Shown: positions 56,833-64,000 of the stretch, in pieces
How positions within the stretch are numbered: position 1 is the first letter of the stretch
Layout: every line of letters begins with the position of its first letter
Assembly (NCBI RefSeq): GCF_008704495.1
Contig: NZ_CP023699.1
Span: 2,728,001 to 2,792,000 of the forward strand
Length of the DNA: 64,000 nt
From: Streptomyces kanamyceticus
GTDB taxonomy: Bacteria; Actinomycetota; Actinomycetes; Streptomycetales; Streptomycetaceae
Direction of reading: 5' to 3'
Translations under genes and position numbers: made by a program
The notes under the pieces: generated by a model
Databases searched by the model: none
What the model saw: only the letters and a program-made list of their open reading frames with translations
Told to the model about the DNA's origin: nothing

Positions 56833-57063
56833 GTGACTACTGTTCTGACCCCCGCGAGCCCCCTGACGGCCGCTGATCGCTGCGACCGCTGCGGCGCCCA
56901 GGCATACCTGCGCGTCGTCCTGTTGAGCGGCGGTGAACTGCTCTTCTGCGCCCACCATGGCCGCAAGTTCGAGCCGGAACTCAAGAAGATCGCCGCTGAG
57001 ATACAGGATGAGACGGAGCGACTGACCGCCGTTCCCGAAAGCGCCACCGAAGAGGAACGCTGA
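56833..57063 (+). CDS. DUF7455 zinc-ribbon-like protein
   Basis: The 76-residue protein reads MTTVLTPASPLTAADRCDRC, followed by GAQAYLRVVLLSGGELLFCAHHGRKFEPELKKIA. The CDRC and CAHH pairs should bind one zinc ion. It is a small conserved actinobacterial family (DUF7455) usually found beside hrdB and parE; its role is not established. The GTG start is preceded by GAGGCGAC. A perfect hairpin terminator follows at 57110-57147. Confidence 0.88.
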   Translation: MTTVLTPASPLTAADRCDRCGAQAYLRVVLLSGGELLFCAHHGRKFEPELKKIAAEIQDETERLTAVPESATEEER

Positions 57064-57236: not shown

Positions 57237-58067
57237 TCAGCCGCGCCCGCGCATCACTCCGGCGACACCCGAGAGCCGCGTGTAGACGCCCGGGCTCCCG
57301 GCCCGCCCGCAGCCACTCCCCCAGGACACCAGTCCGATCAGTCGCCCGTGCGCGACGAGCGGCCCTCCGCTGTCCCCCTGGCAGGCGTCGCGCCGACCGT
57401 CCAGCTCGCCCGCGCACACCATGGTCGCGGCCGTGTACGTTCCGTCAACGCTGCCCGGATACGCCTTCTCGCACACGGCGTCGGCGAGCACCTGAACGCG
57501 CGCCGAGTGGAGCGTACGGGCGTAAGTCCCCGACCCGGTGGTGTCTCCCCAGCCGTAGACGGCGGCAGCGGTACCCGCCTCGTACGCCGGATCCCCCTGC
57601 CCGGCCACGGGGATCGCAGACCCCTTGGGCAACGGCTCGGCCAGGGTCAGTACCGCTACGTCACCGGAGTTCGTGTAGCTGTCGTACTCCGGATTGATCC
57701 AGACTCGGCGCACCGGAATCTCCGCTCCGTCGGCCGCCCGCAGGTCACCGCGGCCCGCGATGACCTTCAGGTCCTCGACGTCGCTCAGCGGCACTCCGAG
57801 CACGTCCCGGCCCATACAGTGCGCGGCGGTCAGGACCGTTGTGCGCCCGATCACCACACCGCCGCAGAACTGCCCCGACCGGGTACCGCCGAACCGGTCA
57901 CGGCTGGAGAGCGCCACGGCCCACGGACTGTCGGAAGCCCGCACCGGGCCGCCCCCGATGACCACACTGTCGGCTGACGCGGGGATCGGGGAAACCAGCG
58001 GCAGCGCGGCGGCAGCGGCCATCAGGGCCAGTGCCCCCGTCCACACTCGGGCGAAGGGACGACGCAT
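57237..58067 (-). CDS. Secreted trypsin-like serine protease (S1A)
   Basis: The 276-residue protein has a signal peptide (WTGALALMAAAAALPLVS, cleavage near ASA-DS), a short activation segment ending SVVIGGG, and the chymotrypsin fold. The catalytic triad is visible: His in LTAAHCMG, Asp in NSGDVAVLTL, Ser in CQGDSGGPLV; the S1 pocket Asp (RRDACQGDSGG) indicates cleavage after Arg/Lys. The start ATG is preceded by GAGGAGA. An inverted repeat ACTCTGGGT-N11-ACCCAGAGT (58079-58107) lies just upstream of the start and may regulate it. Confidence 0.93.
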   Translation of the reverse strand: MRRPFARVWTGALALMAAAAALPLVSPIPASADSVVIGGGPVRASDSPWAVALSSRDRFGGTRSGQFCGGVVIGRTTVLTAAHCMGRDVLGVPLSDVEDLKVIAGRGDLRAADGAEIPVRRVWINPEYDSYTNSGDVAVLTLAEPLPKGSAIPVAGQGDPAYEAGTAAAVYGWGDTTGSGTYARTLHSARVQVLADAVCEKAYPGSVDGTYTAATMVCAGELDGRRDACQGDSGGPLVAHGRLIGLVSWGSGCGRAGSPGVYTRLSGVAGVMRGRG

Positions 58068-58138: not shown

Positions 58139-58181
58139 CGAAAGGCCCGAAGTCTCGTGTCTGGAGACTTCGGGCCTTTCG
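58139..58181. terminator. Strong terminator, interpreted as the hrdB terminator
   Basis: CGAAAGGCCCGAAGTCTC and its perfect complement flank a seven-base loop. It lies between the trypsin-like gene start and the short hrdB 3' end at 58208, oriented as the end of a minus-strand transcript. Confidence 0.88.
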
Positions 58182-58207
58182 TGGAGCGCACGGGCTACTC
58201 TCGCCGC

Positions 58208-58228
58208 CTAGTCGAGGTAGTCGCGCAG
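58208..58228 (-). other. 3' end of hrdB left at an element junction (putative attachment site)
   Basis: On the minus strand, CTGCGCGACTACCTCGACTA + G encodes LRDYLD-stop, the C-terminus of the Streptomyces principal sigma factor HrdB (...SRSQVLRDYLD). Immediately upstream (towards higher coordinates) the sequence no longer matches hrdB coding. The hrdB-like terminator follows in the right place. The simplest reading is that a mobile element recombined at the last codons of hrdB, leaving this copy of the att core; the intact gene should be at the other end of the element. Confidence 0.72.
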
Positions 58229-58339
58229 TATGAACGTCTAAGCGCTGTGCTTGACCTGCGTAAACGCTGGTCAGCCGTGAGCGTGAGGCGCGAAATATCC
58301 TCGACTGAGAGCCTGCTCATCAAGGCGTCGCGCACCCCC

Positions 58340-58368
58340 TTGACACCACGGCCATCGAGGCGGATACC
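58340..58368 (+). promoter_or_regulatory. Possible promoter of the 165-residue protein gene
   Basis: TTGACA at 58340-58345 is followed after 17 bases by GATACC, a modest match to a -10 box, about 80 bases upstream of the ATG at 58450. Confidence 0.4.
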
Positions 58369-58449
58369 GGAGGCACAAGACGGCGCCGCCGGGTGTCCTA
58401 CCACCCGACAGCGCCTTGGTCATCACCTGACGGAAGCAGGCGACAACCC

Positions 58450-58947
58450 ATGGCTGACTTTAGCGATGCCCCGGACCCTGGCAAGGGCCCGGATGACGCC
58501 GACCAGTGGGCCCGCGACATGGTGCGCGGCCTGCCCCCGATGCGCCGCGAGGACATCGAGTCCCTGGAGTGCCTCCGCACCCTCCTGCGGGGCACCAAGC
58601 CCGCTCCGGAGCCCTTCCCGGAGATCCCCGAGGAACTGCTGCTCCTCGCCGGATCGGAGGAGATCCCGGACGGCGCCAAGAGCACCGTCCTCGGAGTGCT
58701 CTTCGCCAGCGCGTTCGCGTACGCCGTCGCCACGGCGGACACCGACCAGGCGCGTGCGGAGCTGCTGGAACGCACCCTCGGGGTGCGGCTGACACACGCG
58801 CTGGCCTCCCTCGTGCTCGACTACGAAGCCCGCGTCCTCGGCCAGGATCCTGGCGCCGTCACCCTGGCCGACTGCGGCAGGACGGCCGTCACGGTCATGT
58901 ACGAGGTCGCCGTCCGCGACGGCTGGACCGAAAGGAAGACGTCATGA
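58450..58947 (+). CDS. Element protein of unknown function, 165 residues
   Basis: The acidic product, MADFSDAPDPGKGPDDADQW..., has no signal peptide. A mildly hydrophobic stretch (TVLGVLFASAFAYAVATADT) is probably a buried helix. I do not recognise a family. The codon use is normal for a Streptomyces gene. Its stop overlaps the start of the 30-residue ORF (ATGA), so the two are translated together. It is the first gene after the attachment site. Confidence 0.8.
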   Translation: MADFSDAPDPGKGPDDADQWARDMVRGLPPMRREDIESLECLRTLLRGTKPAPEPFPEIPEELLLLAGSEEIPDGAKSTVLGVLFASAFAYAVATADTDQARAELLERTLGVRLTHALASLVLDYEARVLGQDPGAVTLADCGRTAVTVMYEVAVRDGWTERKTS

Positions 58948-59093: not shown

Positions 59094-59495
59094 TCAGACG
59101 ACGGGCAGCCCTCCGGTGCCCTTCTGGGGAAGTCGGCCATGCCGCCGCCCCTGGGAATCCTGACTGCGCGCCGCAGGGCGGTGACGGCGGCCCTGCGGCC
59201 CTGCGCGGTCCTCCTGGACAACACCCCCGAGGGGCGCGTCCAGCACCTGCGCGGTCCGGGCGAACTGCTCGAAGGGGACCTTGAGCGCCTGCGCGTAGAT
59301 CGCCAGCCACTCGTGCGGGATACGTGCGCCCCGCTCCCACAGTGCGATCTTGAAGCGGCACACCTGCCACCGTCTGCCCGACAGGGCGAACATGATCTGT
59401 GCCAGCTGCCGCTGGGTCAGGCCCGCGCGCACACGCCAGCCCGCCAAGTTCGCGCCGAACCGCTGCCGCCTCTGGGAGTTGCCCCGCCTGGTCAT
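59094..59495 (-). CDS. XRE-family DNA-binding protein
   Basis: The 133-residue product has an XRE helix-turn-helix (FGANLAGWRVRAGLTQRQLAQIMFALSGRRW...) with the recognition region CRFKIALWERGARIPHEWLA. The C-terminal 50 residues are Arg/Gly-rich and look disordered. No Shine-Dalgarno is visible before the ATG at 59495. The palindrome GCCCAG-TC-CTGGGC at 59507-59520 lies just upstream, so it may be autoregulated, like a phage repressor. Confidence 0.8.
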   Translation of the reverse strand: MTRRGNSQRRQRFGANLAGWRVRAGLTQRQLAQIMFALSGRRWQVCRFKIALWERGARIPHEWLAIYAQALKVPFEQFARTAQVLDAPLGGVVQEDRAGPQGRRHRPAARSQDSQGRRHGRLPQKGTGGLPVV

Positions 59496-59712: not shown

Positions 59713-59919
59713 CTAGTGCTCACTCCACGGGCGCCCCGGCATCGTCGGGATGACCGTCCGGCCGCCATGCCGACAGCCGTGGTCACAGCGGTACACGAAG
59801 ATCGGCGGCTCGCAGGGCGGCCGCTTGCCGGGCGCGTACACCGGGACGTTGTCGCCGGGGCAGAGGCTGCACAGCCCCATCTCGCACTCGGGACTCAGCT
59901 CCTGCACCTTGGTCGTCAT
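59713..59919 (-). CDS. Small Cys/His-rich protein (68 residues)
   Basis: The product MTTKVQELSPECEMGLCSLC continues with PPCEPPIFVYRCDHGCRHGG. Eight Cys/His residues in spaced pairs suggest a zinc-binding fold. It is coupled to the upstream 70-residue gene by ATGA overlap. I do not recognise the family; similar small proteins accompany XRE regulators in Streptomyces accessory regions. Confidence 0.75.
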   Translation of the reverse strand: MTTKVQELSPECEMGLCSLCPGDNVPVYAPGKRPPCEPPIFVYRCDHGCRHGGRTVIPTMPGRPWSEH

Positions 59920-60128
59920 CGCCGCGCCCGCTTCCGGACGCAGTCCGGGCAGGAGCACGGCGGGTAGCGGCACGCGGACGACGATGACACCGCGTCCGTG
60001 CAGTCGACGCGCCGCGTGCCGGTGTCCGAGGTGACCGTCCCGTACCGGTCGACGACGTAGATCCTCAGCGTCATGGCGCTTCCAGCACCCACTTCAGCAA
60101 CGCCGTCCTGGGTCGTACTGTCAGCCAT
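59916..60128 (-). CDS. Small protein with Cys/Arg-rich tail (70 residues)
   Basis: The product MADSTTQDGVAEVGAGSAMT, then LRIYVVDRYGTVTSDTGTRRVD, ends CRYPPCSCPDCVRKRARR. The CxCPDC tail could bind metal. The ATG at 60128 is preceded by CAGG; an internal ATG at 60074 is another possible start. It is divergent from the XRE-TPR regulator at 60277 and coupled to the 68-residue gene. Confidence 0.72.
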   Translation of the reverse strand: MADSTTQDGVAEVGAGSAMTLRIYVVDRYGTVTSDTGTRRVDCTDAVSSSSACRYPPCSCPDCVRKRARR

Positions 60129-60276: not shown

Positions 60277-61521
60277 ATGAGCAGCGAGCGGAAGCGGCAG
60301 TTCGGCATGTACCTCACGCGGCTGCGGCGACGAACCAGCCGATCACAGCGGCAGCTCGCCGCAGACCTCTGCGCCCTGTCCGGTGTCCAGTCGGTCACGC
60401 GTAATGAGATCTCCCGGTGGGAGCGCGGTGAGCGCCTGCCCGGGGTGTGGCTGCCCTTCCTCGCGAGCGCCCTCAAGACCCCTCTCGCAGACCTCGAACA
60501 AGCTGCCGCGTACGCGCGTGGCGACGCCCTGGCGCCCCTTCCGGGGCCCGCCGCGACGCTCGCCGAACTCCTGCCCCCGGACGACCCCTTGGCGCCGCTC
60601 ACGGCCCGCTCGGGACGTCGCATCGGGATGACGACCGTGGACAGCCTCGCCGGACGCGTCCACGGTCTACGGCTCGCCGATGACGTCCTGTCCGGGGGTG
60701 ACCTCGCAGGGCCCGCGGTGCGCGAACTGCGGGCCGCCGTGAAGATTCACCGCGAGTCGTCGTACGACGACGACACCGGGCGTGCGCTGCTCGTCCAGAT
60801 CGGCGAGTTGGCGCAAATCTGTGGGTGGATCTTGAGTGACGCCGGACGCCACGCCGATGCCGAGCACGCATACGGGATCGGCATCTCTGCCGCCCGGCAG
60901 GCAGGTGACACCACTCTGGTCGGCAATGTCGCCGGGTCGCTCGCCTATCAGCACGCCAACAACGGACGGGAGCGCGAAGGCGTCGACCTGGCCCGTGCAG
61001 CCCTCGAAGAGGCCGGACCCGACGCGCCACCCAAGACCCGAGCGCTCTTCCTCGATCGCGTCGCCTGGACACTCACCAAGGTCGACGAAGCGCAGCCCGC
61101 CATGCGCGCCCTCGAAGAAGCGCACGCGGCGCTGTCGGATGCCAACGACCGCGCGGCGCCGACATGGTCGTACTGGGTCTCTCGGGAAGAGCTTGAGATC
61201 ATGGACGCGCGCGTCTTCACCGAGCTGAAGCGCCCTTTGCGGGCCGTGCCCTTGCTGACGGATGTGTTGGGCCGCTACGAAGCCACGCACGCCCGCGAGT
61301 TGGCTCTGTACCGATCGTGGTTGAGCATCGCGTACGCGGACGCCAACGAGCCGGAGGCCGCAGCGGAAGAGGCGCGTGCGGTGATCGAGCTGTCCGGCGA
61401 CCTCGCGAGCGACCGCACGGCAGAGCGCACAAGGGTCATCCTCCGGCGGCTCCAGGCGTACGAGGACGTGCCGGAGGCTCGGGCGGTCCTGGACGATCAC
61501 GGGCACCTCTTGCTCGTGTAG
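60277..61521 (+). CDS. XRE-family regulator with tetratricopeptide-type domain
   Basis: The 414-residue product has an N-terminal XRE helix-turn-helix (residues 8-70: FGMYLTRLRRRTSRSQRQLA, TRNEISRWERGERLPGVWLP) and a long helical C-terminal half with TPR-like repeats (DAEHAYGIGISAARQAGD, EGVDLARAALEEAGPDA, PAMRALEEAHAALSDAND, RAVPLLTDVLGRYEATHA). Large XRE-TPR proteins in Streptomyces often respond to peptides or regulate element maintenance. ATG at 60277 has a G-rich site (AGAGGGGG). The repeat-rich gap follows directly. Confidence 0.85.
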   Translation: MSSERKRQFGMYLTRLRRRTSRSQRQLAADLCALSGVQSVTRNEISRWERGERLPGVWLPFLASALKTPLADLEQAAAYARGDALAPLPGPAATLAELLPPDDPLAPLTARSGRRIGMTTVDSLAGRVHGLRLADDVLSGGDLAGPAVRELRAAVKIHRESSYDDDTGRALLVQIGELAQICGWILSDAGRHADAEHAYGIGISAARQAGDTTLVGNVAGSLAYQHANNGREREGVDLARAALEEAGPDAPPKTRALFLDRVAWTLTKVDEAQPAMRALEEAHAALSDANDRAAPTWSYWVSREELEIMDARVFTELKRPLRAVPLLTDVLGRYEATHARELALYRSWLSIAYADANEPEAAAEEARAVIELSGDLASDRTAERTRVILRRLQAYEDVPEARAVLDDHGHLLLV

Positions 61522-61980: not shown

Positions 61981-62151
61981 CTAGTCGGCGTCGTCGACGC
62001 CGACGTCGTCGGCGTCCGGCAGGCAGCGCCACAGGCTCGTGTCGATGCCTTCGCGGCGTGCAGTGAGCGCGTCGGCGAGTCGGTCGTACTCGGCATCGCG
62101 CGCGGCGGCGTTGTGCGCGGCGACGTCGCGCAAGATCTCGAAGCCGCTCAC
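61981..62151 (-). CDS. Small acidic protein after the capsid gene (56 residues)
   Basis: The GTG at 62151 overlaps the capsid stop as GTGA. The product starts MSGFEILRDVAAHNAAARDA, continues EYDRLADALTARREGIDTSL and ends CLPDADDVGVDDAD. It is short, acidic and helical. The tight coupling to the capsid gene suggests it is made with the capsid; it could be a connector or accessory head protein, but no family is recognised. Confidence 0.72.
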   Translation of the reverse strand: MSGFEILRDVAAHNAAARDAEYDRLADALTARREGIDTSLWRCLPDADDVGVDDAD

Positions 62152-63425
62152 GAGCGAACTCCGACGTCGACCACGAATGCGGATGGCTGGAGTAGCTGGA
62201 CATCACCACGGAGCCAGGCAAGGAATGCAACCTGCCCATTATCCGCATACCTTTCCCGCAGGAATTCGATACGGAATTCGGTACGGATGCCAATAGCGAG
62301 CTGCGACCAATCACCCGTGTAGATTTCGCTGCAATCCGACGACGACCCGACGGTGAGGTTCACCGGGACCTGCCTAGTCGGCAGCATCGGGAGCATTCCG
62401 GCGGGCGGCTGAAGGTACGCATTCGTCGTCGCTTCCTTCAGCTTGGAAAGGCTCGTGTTCGTGCGGGGCGCCTGGATATGGGCGCCCGGCTCGAAGTTGG
62501 CATTCCGCACGGCGCCCACCGCGTCCAAATGGAAGTCATAATTCGAGATGGCCGACCCATTTGCCCCGTGCCCCGTGGTGGTGACCCCTGCTGTATTAGC
62601 CACCCCCCTAGGTTCGGGAGCAGTCCCCGTGCCGCGCAGGGCCACCCGGTCCATTTCGAGTGCGATCTGCTGGGCAAAGCTGTTCGCGATGACGTTGGAC
62701 GCCGACGGGTCGGAATCCTCGAAGAGTTCGACACTCATCGTCACAAGGCGATTCAGGGAACGGGCCTGAAAGGTCACGGAGTCGAATGTCATATCGGCCG
62801 CGGTGATCGCGGAATTCTCATTGCGCCACCCGGGAGAACCTTCGCCGGTAAGGCGTGCGATTTTCAGCGTCTGCGCCGTCATGGGCACAAAGGTCGCACC
62901 CGCCTGCGCGACCCGCATTTGATTTCGTGCGAGGTCGATGACATTTCCGGCGAGCGGGGTCGGCACCAGATATCCACCGGCTGAAAGGGTTCCCTCGGAG
63001 AGCGCCTTTCGCTCCGCGTCGGCGTCTCGCCATTTCCCGGTTGCCATTCCCCGGATAAGCCTATCGAAGCTCAGGCCTTCGTGGTCGCGGTTACCGTGGC
63101 CGTTGTCGCGGCCCCACTGTACGAATGACTGGTCCTTGCGGAGAGTCTCGGCACCCTTGAGGGAATGGCCCCCCGTATTGCCGCGCGACGCGGGACGCGC
63201 GCCGTCGCCGGATTCGTGCCCGTACCCGCCGATCTCGGCGGCCTCAGCGACGCGCTTGAGGTCGTCTATCTCCGAGTTCAGCTTCTTGATGTACTGGGCC
63301 TTTTCGGTCGCGGTGTGATGGTTCTTGACCGTGACGCGGGACAGGTCGAAATCGTCGCCTGCCTCATCGAAGATGCGCTTCAGTTCGGCCCGCTTCTCTT
63401 CGAGGGCCGGAAAGCTTATTGCCAT
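62148..63425 (-). CDS. Phage major capsid protein, HK97 fold
   Basis: The 425-residue product has a coiled-coil N-terminal part like a delta/scaffold domain (residues 5-60: LEEKRAELKRIFDEAGDDFD, YIKKLNSEIDDLKRVAEAAE), then the HK97 capsid core: SEGTLSAGGYLVPTPLAGNV, GSPGWRNENSAITAADMTFD, LVTMSVELFEDSDPSASNVI, FAQQIALEMDRVALRGTGT and IGIRTEFRIEFLRERYADNG near the end. It self-assembles into the head shell. No protease gene lies next to it in the window. ATG at 63425 is chosen; the longer frame upstream looks untranslated. It is followed by the 56-residue gene and no tail genes. Confidence 0.9.
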   Translation of the reverse strand: MAISFPALEEKRAELKRIFDEAGDDFDLSRVTVKNHHTATEKAQYIKKLNSEIDDLKRVAEAAEIGGYGHESGDGARPASRGNTGGHSLKGAETLRKDQSFVQWGRDNGHGNRDHEGLSFDRLIRGMATGKWRDADAERKALSEGTLSAGGYLVPTPLAGNVIDLARNQMRVAQAGATFVPMTAQTLKIARLTGEGSPGWRNENSAITAADMTFDSVTFQARSLNRLVTMSVELFEDSDPSASNVIANSFAQQIALEMDRVALRGTGTAPEPRGVANTAGVTTTGHGANGSAISNYDFHLDAVGAVRNANFEPGAHIQAPRTNTSLSKLKEATTNAYLQPPAGMLPMLPTRQVPVNLTVGSSSDCSEIYTGDWSQLAIGIRTEFRIEFLRERYADNGQVAFLAWLRGDVQLLQPSAFVVDVGVRS

Positions 63426-63632: not shown

Positions 63633-63929
63633 TCAGTCAGGTACGTCCGGCGCTTCGGCGCGTGCTGCGGCGGTGGCCGCCGCGTCCCATACGCGCCACG
63701 TCGGATCAGCGTTGCTGCGGCGCCGGTCGGCCTCGTGGGCGATCTGCTCGGAGATCTTGCGCCCGTAGATCGGCGCCACCTTGACGCCCCGTTCGGCGGC
63801 CATCTCGTGATGTTCGCGGACCATGCGGAAGTGATCGAAGTCGCGCAGGAAGCGGCGGCGGTCGGCGGGGTCGGCGAGTGATTCCAAGGCGCGGCGCATC
63901 CCGGTCGGGTCGGGCGTCCAGTCGGTCAT
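63633..63929 (-). CDS. Element protein of unknown function, 98 residues
   Basis: The product MTDWTPDPTGMRRALESLAD continues PADRRRFLRDFDHFRMVREH and ADRRRSNADPTWRVWDAAAT. It is charged, helical and cytoplasmic. It lies upstream of the capsid gene on the same strand. No family is recognised; a role in DNA binding or head assembly would be a guess. Confidence 0.7.
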   Translation of the reverse strand: MTDWTPDPTGMRRALESLADPADRRRFLRDFDHFRMVREHHEMAAERGVKVAPIYGRKISEQIAHEADRRRSNADPTWRVWDAAATAAARAEAPDVPD

Positions 63930-64000
63930 GGGCGGTACCTCCGAGTGATGTTGGACAGGCGGCCGTTGGCGGGCCGTTGGCGGTGTCGGGGGCGCCCGGT

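Follow-up and report, generated by a model that had tools for sequence, protein, structure and literature searches.

Integration into the ends of protein-coding genes with reconstitution of the gene is already known, and the novelty of the element described here therefore lies in its target, in the breadth of this target and in the exchange of the ending of a sigma factor gene. Among described systems, candidate PICIs of Mycobacterium are defined by the presence of an integrase and a major capsid protein, and phiRv1 and phiRv2 were assigned to this group (PMC10654092). Like the element of Streptomyces kanamyceticus, they are small integrated elements with attL and attR, sometimes with replication proteins, and their capsids are diverse; unlike it, the mapped examples with tyrosine integrase use tRNA genes rather than the 3' end of hrdB/sigA. 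In M. abscessus, 16 of 23 Int-Y sites are at tRNA or tmRNA genes and 7 of 23 elsewhere, and neither sigma nor sigA occurs in the main text of that paper, its site table apart. The Int-Y phages of M. smegmatis use tRNA genes exclusively, and 12 of 16 Int-Y sites in M. abscessus are at such genes as well (PMC9262239). The Streptomyces satellites MulchRoom and MiniFlayer as well as capsid-forming PICIs encode their own capsid and MulchRoom has a tyrosine integrase, but all carry a packaging gene set in addition to the capsid, of which only the capsid protein was found in the element described here; the main text of this work (PMC10690885) does not mention hrdB, attL or attP. The dusA-specific integrases (PMC4482086) are likewise devoted, as a family, to a single conserved protein-coding gene, but they use the 5' end of dusA and not, as here, the 3' end of a sigma gene. 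The temperate Streptomyces phage Kromp (MH744420) has an integrase that is 68% identical to the one described here, and its attP core encodes VRDYLD-stop, with a hairpin-like repeat behind it; it differs in being a phage of 58 kb, for which the annotation of the stretch examined lists holin, endolysin and minor tail protein.

A preliminary description of this DNA had doubted that any integrase using hrdB had been described and our literature searches agree: among the matches listed we found no paper that reports an attachment site in hrdB or sigA (islands of this kind may be recorded in the TIGER/Islander database), and the site did not come up in the text examined from PMC9262239, PMC10654092, PMC10690885, PMC8190616, PMC9934374 and PMC12884075, tables and supplements apart.

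The two junctions at hrdB

The window, by which we mean the whole stretch of 64,000 nucleotides that was analysed, is G000:C1:2728001-2792000 of the 10,133,897-bp (10.13-Mb) single-contig genome of S. kanamyceticus. Coordinates beyond the window are given on the fetched locus L003 (L003 position + 56000 = window position). The features at the junctions are:

58140..58180, minus strand: original hrdB 3' hairpin of the host (inverted repeat in the sequence), parted from hrdB by the insertion
58207..58228, minus strand: attL, 22-bp core common with the 3' end of intact hrdB (exact direct repeat); in hrdB sense, the element-derived left side is followed by the 7-bp overlap TGCGCGA and then by the last codons, stop and 3' end that the host had originally, as judged from the crossover interval of 24 elements
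58229..58243, minus strand: attP-left arm adjoining the core (similar sequence is present left of the distal core in other elements)
L003 12147-12184: element-side hairpin between hrdB and the integrase gene
L003 12198-12219: attR

The minus strand of window positions 58208-58228 reads CTG CGC GAC TAC CTC GAC TAG and thus encodes LRDYLD-stop, as the preliminary description had claimed; the sequence upstream of these last codons is indeed not hrdB. This 21-mer has exactly two copies in the whole genome, both on the minus strand and 9,991 bp apart. The longest exact direct repeat is 22 bp (window 58207-58228 and the distant copy), and the flanks outside the repeat do not align. Integration at the 3' end of an essential gene had been proposed, with the gene rebuilt at the far junction, and the assembly beyond position 64000 bears this out: the distant copy of the core is the 3' end of an intact minus-strand hrdB (L003 12199-13743, 514 aa, with the sigma-70 regions 1.2, 2, 3 and 4) and a tyrosine integrase gene, co-oriented with hrdB, adjoins it, starting 86 nt from the hrdB stop (L003 11219-12112). 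The predicted DUF7455 gene is present (56833-57063); a trypsin-like gene (57237-58067), which the preliminary description did not mention, sits between the DUF7455 gene and the junction. The hairpin downstream of the stop, a putative terminator, is at 58140-58180. No RNA families and no tRNAs were found at the junction.

Related genomes without the element have an empty site. We fetched 12 same-genus relatives (G001-G012), and in nine of the 11 with a readable hrdB 3' end, 132-267 nt separate the last sense codon of hrdB from the start of the match to the trypsin-like protein; with the element removed, the same distance in S. kanamyceticus would be 144 nt. The two other readable relatives, G007 and G009, are scar candidates (see below).

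The integrase clade, its target and the crossover interval

The integrase matches PF00589, the conserved catalytic domain of tyrosine recombinases, and R148, H241, R244, H245, W267 and Y276, which we take to be the catalytic residues, are invariant among six aligned sequences. Of 392 Streptomyces genomes, 31 have an integrase match at E 1e-20 or better. The S. kanamyceticus integrase and its four relatives at 64-78% identity all adjoin hrdB (5/5), and hrdB is absent at the 25 other integrase loci fetched, all with 41% identity or less (five weaker places were outside the fetch).

A scan with the six-sequence integrase alignment returned 80 loci (of 90 matches) in public genomes and 16 in viral contigs. 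In 47 of the 80 genome loci and in five of the 16 viral loci the start of the integrase gene closely follows the 3' end of the principal sigma factor gene; these 52 loci represent 13 named families and include some redundancy, as L078 and L132 are the same contig counted twice and L041, L042 and L053 repeat the genomes G261, G061 and G389. The distance between the last sense codon of sigma and the integrase start is 95-149 nt in 49 of the 52 loci and 276-371 nt in the other three, and the sigma protein ends in LRDYLD at 50 loci and in LREYLD at two. Nine further viral contigs, and phage Kromp, have [V/L]RDYLD-stop 5' of the integrase gene and no adjoining sigma gene, as would be expected for a free attP. 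Full-size phages probably rely on this system too, given that four of these nine contigs measure 58-79 kb and in view of the Kromp sequence.

The remaining 44 of the 96 clade loci, which include the nine attP-like viral ones, do not adjoin a sigma gene. L105 and L109 repeat a 35-bp tRNA-like 3' end in place of the sigma end, indicating that the clade has switched targets; at L080, L081, L089 and L095 the repeats are of other kinds, 18-23 bp long and without relation to the sigma end, and we identified no target for most of the rest. The clade is therefore not limited to sigma genes. On the integrase tree (built quickly from 104 rows, excluding five short ones, and rooted only for drawing) the sigma-site label needs 11 changes, against a shuffled mean of 34.9. 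The integrases of Bruin-type mycobacteriophages (42% identical) were considered as further users of hrdB and rejected, as no hrdB-like core is present in 6.9 kb around the Bruin integrase. In G261 the integrase is beside hrdB (L034 with L038, contig 466), and there is no second core in the 37.7-kb contig; no PF05065 match was found in this genome (reached through L041) and the cargo of its element looks different.

The sigma-adjacent elements number 54, of which 52 come from the scans and the other two are L003 and L036. A second core was found within the stretch examined for 24 of them (22 of the scan loci and both of the others); for the remaining 30, either the contig stops too early, the element extends past the 10-kb flank or no distal core exists. 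Core-to-core distances are 3,022-10,753 bp, with 20 of 24 between 8,930 and 10,753 bp, an upper limit set by the 10-kb flank. After integration, the near copy of the core is expected to consist of host sequence on the left and element sequence on the right, and the distal copy of the reverse. The identity intervals of the 24 elements intersect in exactly 7 bp, which read TGCGCGA in 23 elements and TGCGGGA in both copies of L063; some of the shared bases are built in, as the 24 elements were chosen by eye from repeats, by the similarity of both ends, and later mutation could blur single cases. The interval falls within the codons CTG-CGC-GAC and the 7-mer TGCGCGA is present in 48 of the 52 sigma-adjacent loci. 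Overlaps of 7 bp are in the usual range for tyrosine recombinases.

The proposed mechanism is as follows. The tyrosine integrase of the element would have recombined an attP carrying a copy of the last hrdB codons with the same codons of the host, with strand exchange within TGCGCGA. The part of hrdB upstream of the exchange point would stay in place; with the exchange in these 7 bp, the last codons, the stop and the 3' hairpin would therefore be element-derived after integration and the HrdB protein would be unchanged. The host's own hrdB ending with its hairpin would have been left at the far junction, the one visible in the window.

The shared stretch of only 22 bp could also be read as an assembly artefact, a chance repeat or a segmental duplication of the hrdB end. 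We rejected artefact and chance: the genome is a single contig, 24 two-ended elements follow the same junction logic, relatives have empty sites and phages have attP-like cores, which leaves a reading of this kind, duplication included, with negligible probability. Integration as such is, judged from these sequence comparisons, close to certain.

Gene content and the kind of element

The 9,991-bp element contains the following genes:

58450..58947, plus strand: 165-aa protein, no Pfam or PHROG match at 0.01
59094..59495, minus strand: 133-aa protein with a weak helix-turn-helix match (best E 3e-4, to PHROG repressor families; the match to HTH_31 of Pfam is below the cutoff)
59713..59973, minus strand: 86-aa protein, no Pfam or PHROG match at 0.01
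60277..61521, plus strand: 414-aa helix-turn-helix regulator of the NsdA family (PF13560; phrog_10886; NF053720 with 219.6 bits, cutoff 75)
61981..62151, minus strand: 56-aa protein, no Pfam match
62148..63425, minus strand: 425-aa HK97-type phage major capsid protein (PF05065, E 3.3e-35; phrog_10; TIGR01554, 163 bits)
63633..63929, minus strand: 98-aa protein, 39% identical (tblastn) to one in the G061 element
63930..64000: element, running on past the window
L003 8259-9545: AAA_25 ATPase, which matches profiles of phage primase/helicase families (best E 4e-11)
Also beyond the window: proteins of 95 aa, 242 aa (HTH-like), 101 aa and 90 aa
L003 11219-12112: integrase (PF00589, E 7.5e-26, and PF02899)

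The ATPase may act in replication, as its matches to phage primase/helicase families suggest. The namesake of the NsdA family represses development and antibiotic production in Streptomyces, and the element might influence its host through the regulator at 60277-61521.

This gene content likely fits a phage satellite, more precisely a candidate PICI: integrase (PF00589) and major capsid gene (PF05065) lie in one phage-like region, which is bounded by attL and attR, the 22-bp repeat with its copies 9,991 bp apart. Terminase, portal, protease, connector, tail and conjugation proteins were all absent among the element proteins scanned (a few ORFs of less than 56 aa were outside the scan), so that of the set that capsid-forming PICIs encode besides the capsid protein (terminase, portal, protease and connectors) none was found. 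The preliminary description, which had correctly recognised a mobile element, did not foresee that its integrase belongs to a large clade and that it resembles a phage satellite and not a complete prophage.

The other two-ended elements are similar in part. A sequence search with four capsid seeds, taken from members of the 24-element set, found a major capsid gene in 14 of the 24; L072 adds a capsid gene of another family and nine have no recognised capsid gene. A profile scan covered 129 of the 348 called ORFs, from 21 of the 24 elements (integrases and the elements L071, L077 and L099 were left out); among the best 25 of 35 families, there were 14 matches to PF05065, nine to AAA_25, five to prohead protease, three to Prim-Pol, one to portal and one, in L128, to TerL. 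Capsid matches are also present near clade integrases that do not adjoin sigma (L080, L081, L089, L103 and L129). A scan of the same 129 ORFs for defence genes gave, among the best 25 of 54 families, weak HTH matches in three ORFs and matches to methyltransferase models in one ORF each. A sigma-site element from mycobacteria (L047 15228-16946) encodes a single protein of 572 aa in which the prohead protease is fused to the major capsid protein.

A complete prophage would have packaging, tail and lysis sets; the element is 9,991 bp long and the capsid gene is the only structural gene found. It could be the remnant of a full temperate prophage, for example a Kromp-like one, which integrated at hrdB and has lost most of its genes: the 58-kb phage Kromp and the four viral contigs of 58-79 kb have the same integrase type and attP core, and deleted remnants do exist at the hrdB site. 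We consider this improbable, as 20 of the 24 elements are 8.9-10.8 kb long (the 10-kb flank biases this range) and have the integrase at one end, 14 of 24 have a capsid gene, and independent decay is not expected to produce such a recurring compact make-up.

The double-stranded DNA transfer protein of AICEs is of the FtsK/TraB type. Integrative conjugative elements of actinomycetes, too, can combine primase/ATPase with a tyrosine integrase, and nine of the 24 hrdB-linked elements have no recognised capsid gene, as would suit an integrative element of non-phage origin, either an AICE or a mobilisable island, in which the capsid gene is a stray. Against this, the scan of the element proteins revealed neither a double-stranded DNA transfer protein nor any other transfer ATPase, a capsid gene recurs in 14 of the 24 elements and five of the 129 ORFs match prohead protease: such an origin is highly improbable.

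We therefore regard it as very probable that a satellite-like integrative element of 9,991 bp resides in the 3' end of hrdB, that its integrase placed it there by exchange in TGCGCGA and that the ending of the gene was swapped. As a satellite, it would use its own ATPase for replication and depend on a helper phage for packaging and tails, and it might form capsids with its own capsid protein. Helper dependence is a candidate trait of the mycobacterial PICIs (as presented in the main text of PMC10654092) and of the S. kanamyceticus element alike.

The same genome has a second capsid gene elsewhere (L174 7524-10792; G000:C1:4617524-4620792), beside a large serine recombinase and with a DUF5753 HTH regulator nearby. 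As no other phage structural gene was found among the eight proteins scanned, this region may be another small satellite-like element.

The hairpin 3' of hrdB, scar candidates and implications

Between the hrdB stop and the integrase gene there is an inverted repeat with 13 consensus pairs, seven of them with two-sided changes, in an alignment of 15 sequences (13 loci from Streptomyces or related viruses, L057 of Saccharomonospora and phage Kromp); the RNAalifold covariation term of this alignment is near zero (0.04). Folding z-scores, calculated with shuffles that keep the single-base and not the dinucleotide composition, are below -2 for 34 of 54 element-side ends and 18 of 24 distal ends (70-nt pieces), and for 13 of the 17 hrdB ends that were treated as empty sites (pieces of 100 nt) versus seven of 108 control pieces. 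A strict terminator rule (hairpin plus T-tract) holds for 18 of 54 near ends and three of 24 distal ends versus 11 of 162 control pieces. The hairpin is not a universal feature: many loci of mycobacteria and of the Nocardioides group have a weak one. The hairpin most likely ends hrdB transcription and would keep read-through out of the co-oriented integrase gene, a plausible insulating role.

Five of the 392 Streptomyces genomes have the integrase at hrdB and a further five (G007, G009, G067, G047 and G199) have an element-type hairpin directly after hrdB and no clade integrase at E 1e-20. These five are candidate scars, which would have been left after decay of the element. Two have clear further remnants: G007 retains a decayed distal core 368 nt away and G067 an integrase remnant broken by stops (E 2e-5). 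G009 retains an arm-like motif in addition to the hairpin; in G047 and G199 the hairpin is the one trait that marks them as candidates. If all five are real, the number is a lower bound, because the search pattern misses other hairpin types. One sequence pattern matched seven of the 392 genomes, namely four with the integrase at hrdB, G009, G360 and G337; the last two were judged chance matches and rejected as scars. A second pattern matched six of 392, five of them without integrase. Neither pattern counts all cases, as the second one missed four of the five intact elements.

A wider reading, which we put forward tentatively and regard as rather doubtful, is that an ancient integrase clade, shared by satellites and full phages of Actinomycetota, uses the 3' end of the principal sigma gene as its anchor throughout the phylum. 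As each integration would swap in an element-borne ending with its hairpin, the elements may repeatedly rewrite the 3' end of hrdB/sigA, leave scars after their decay and place the integrase gene directly downstream and co-oriented; read-through past the hairpin could then tie integrase expression, and hence excision, to hrdB transcription.

The sigma-gene clade contrasts with the tyrosine-integrase sites of the mycobacteriophage literature, which are mostly tRNA genes in the main texts of PMC9262239 and PMC10654092. It also connects satellites and phages as competitors for one attachment site. Because the attachment-site DNA is conserved across the phylum, one integrase might serve many hosts, which suggests an integration-vector site for poorly tractable actinomycetes. 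For the host, the 3' end of an essential gene would be supplied by mobile elements and, apparently, kept after their decay.
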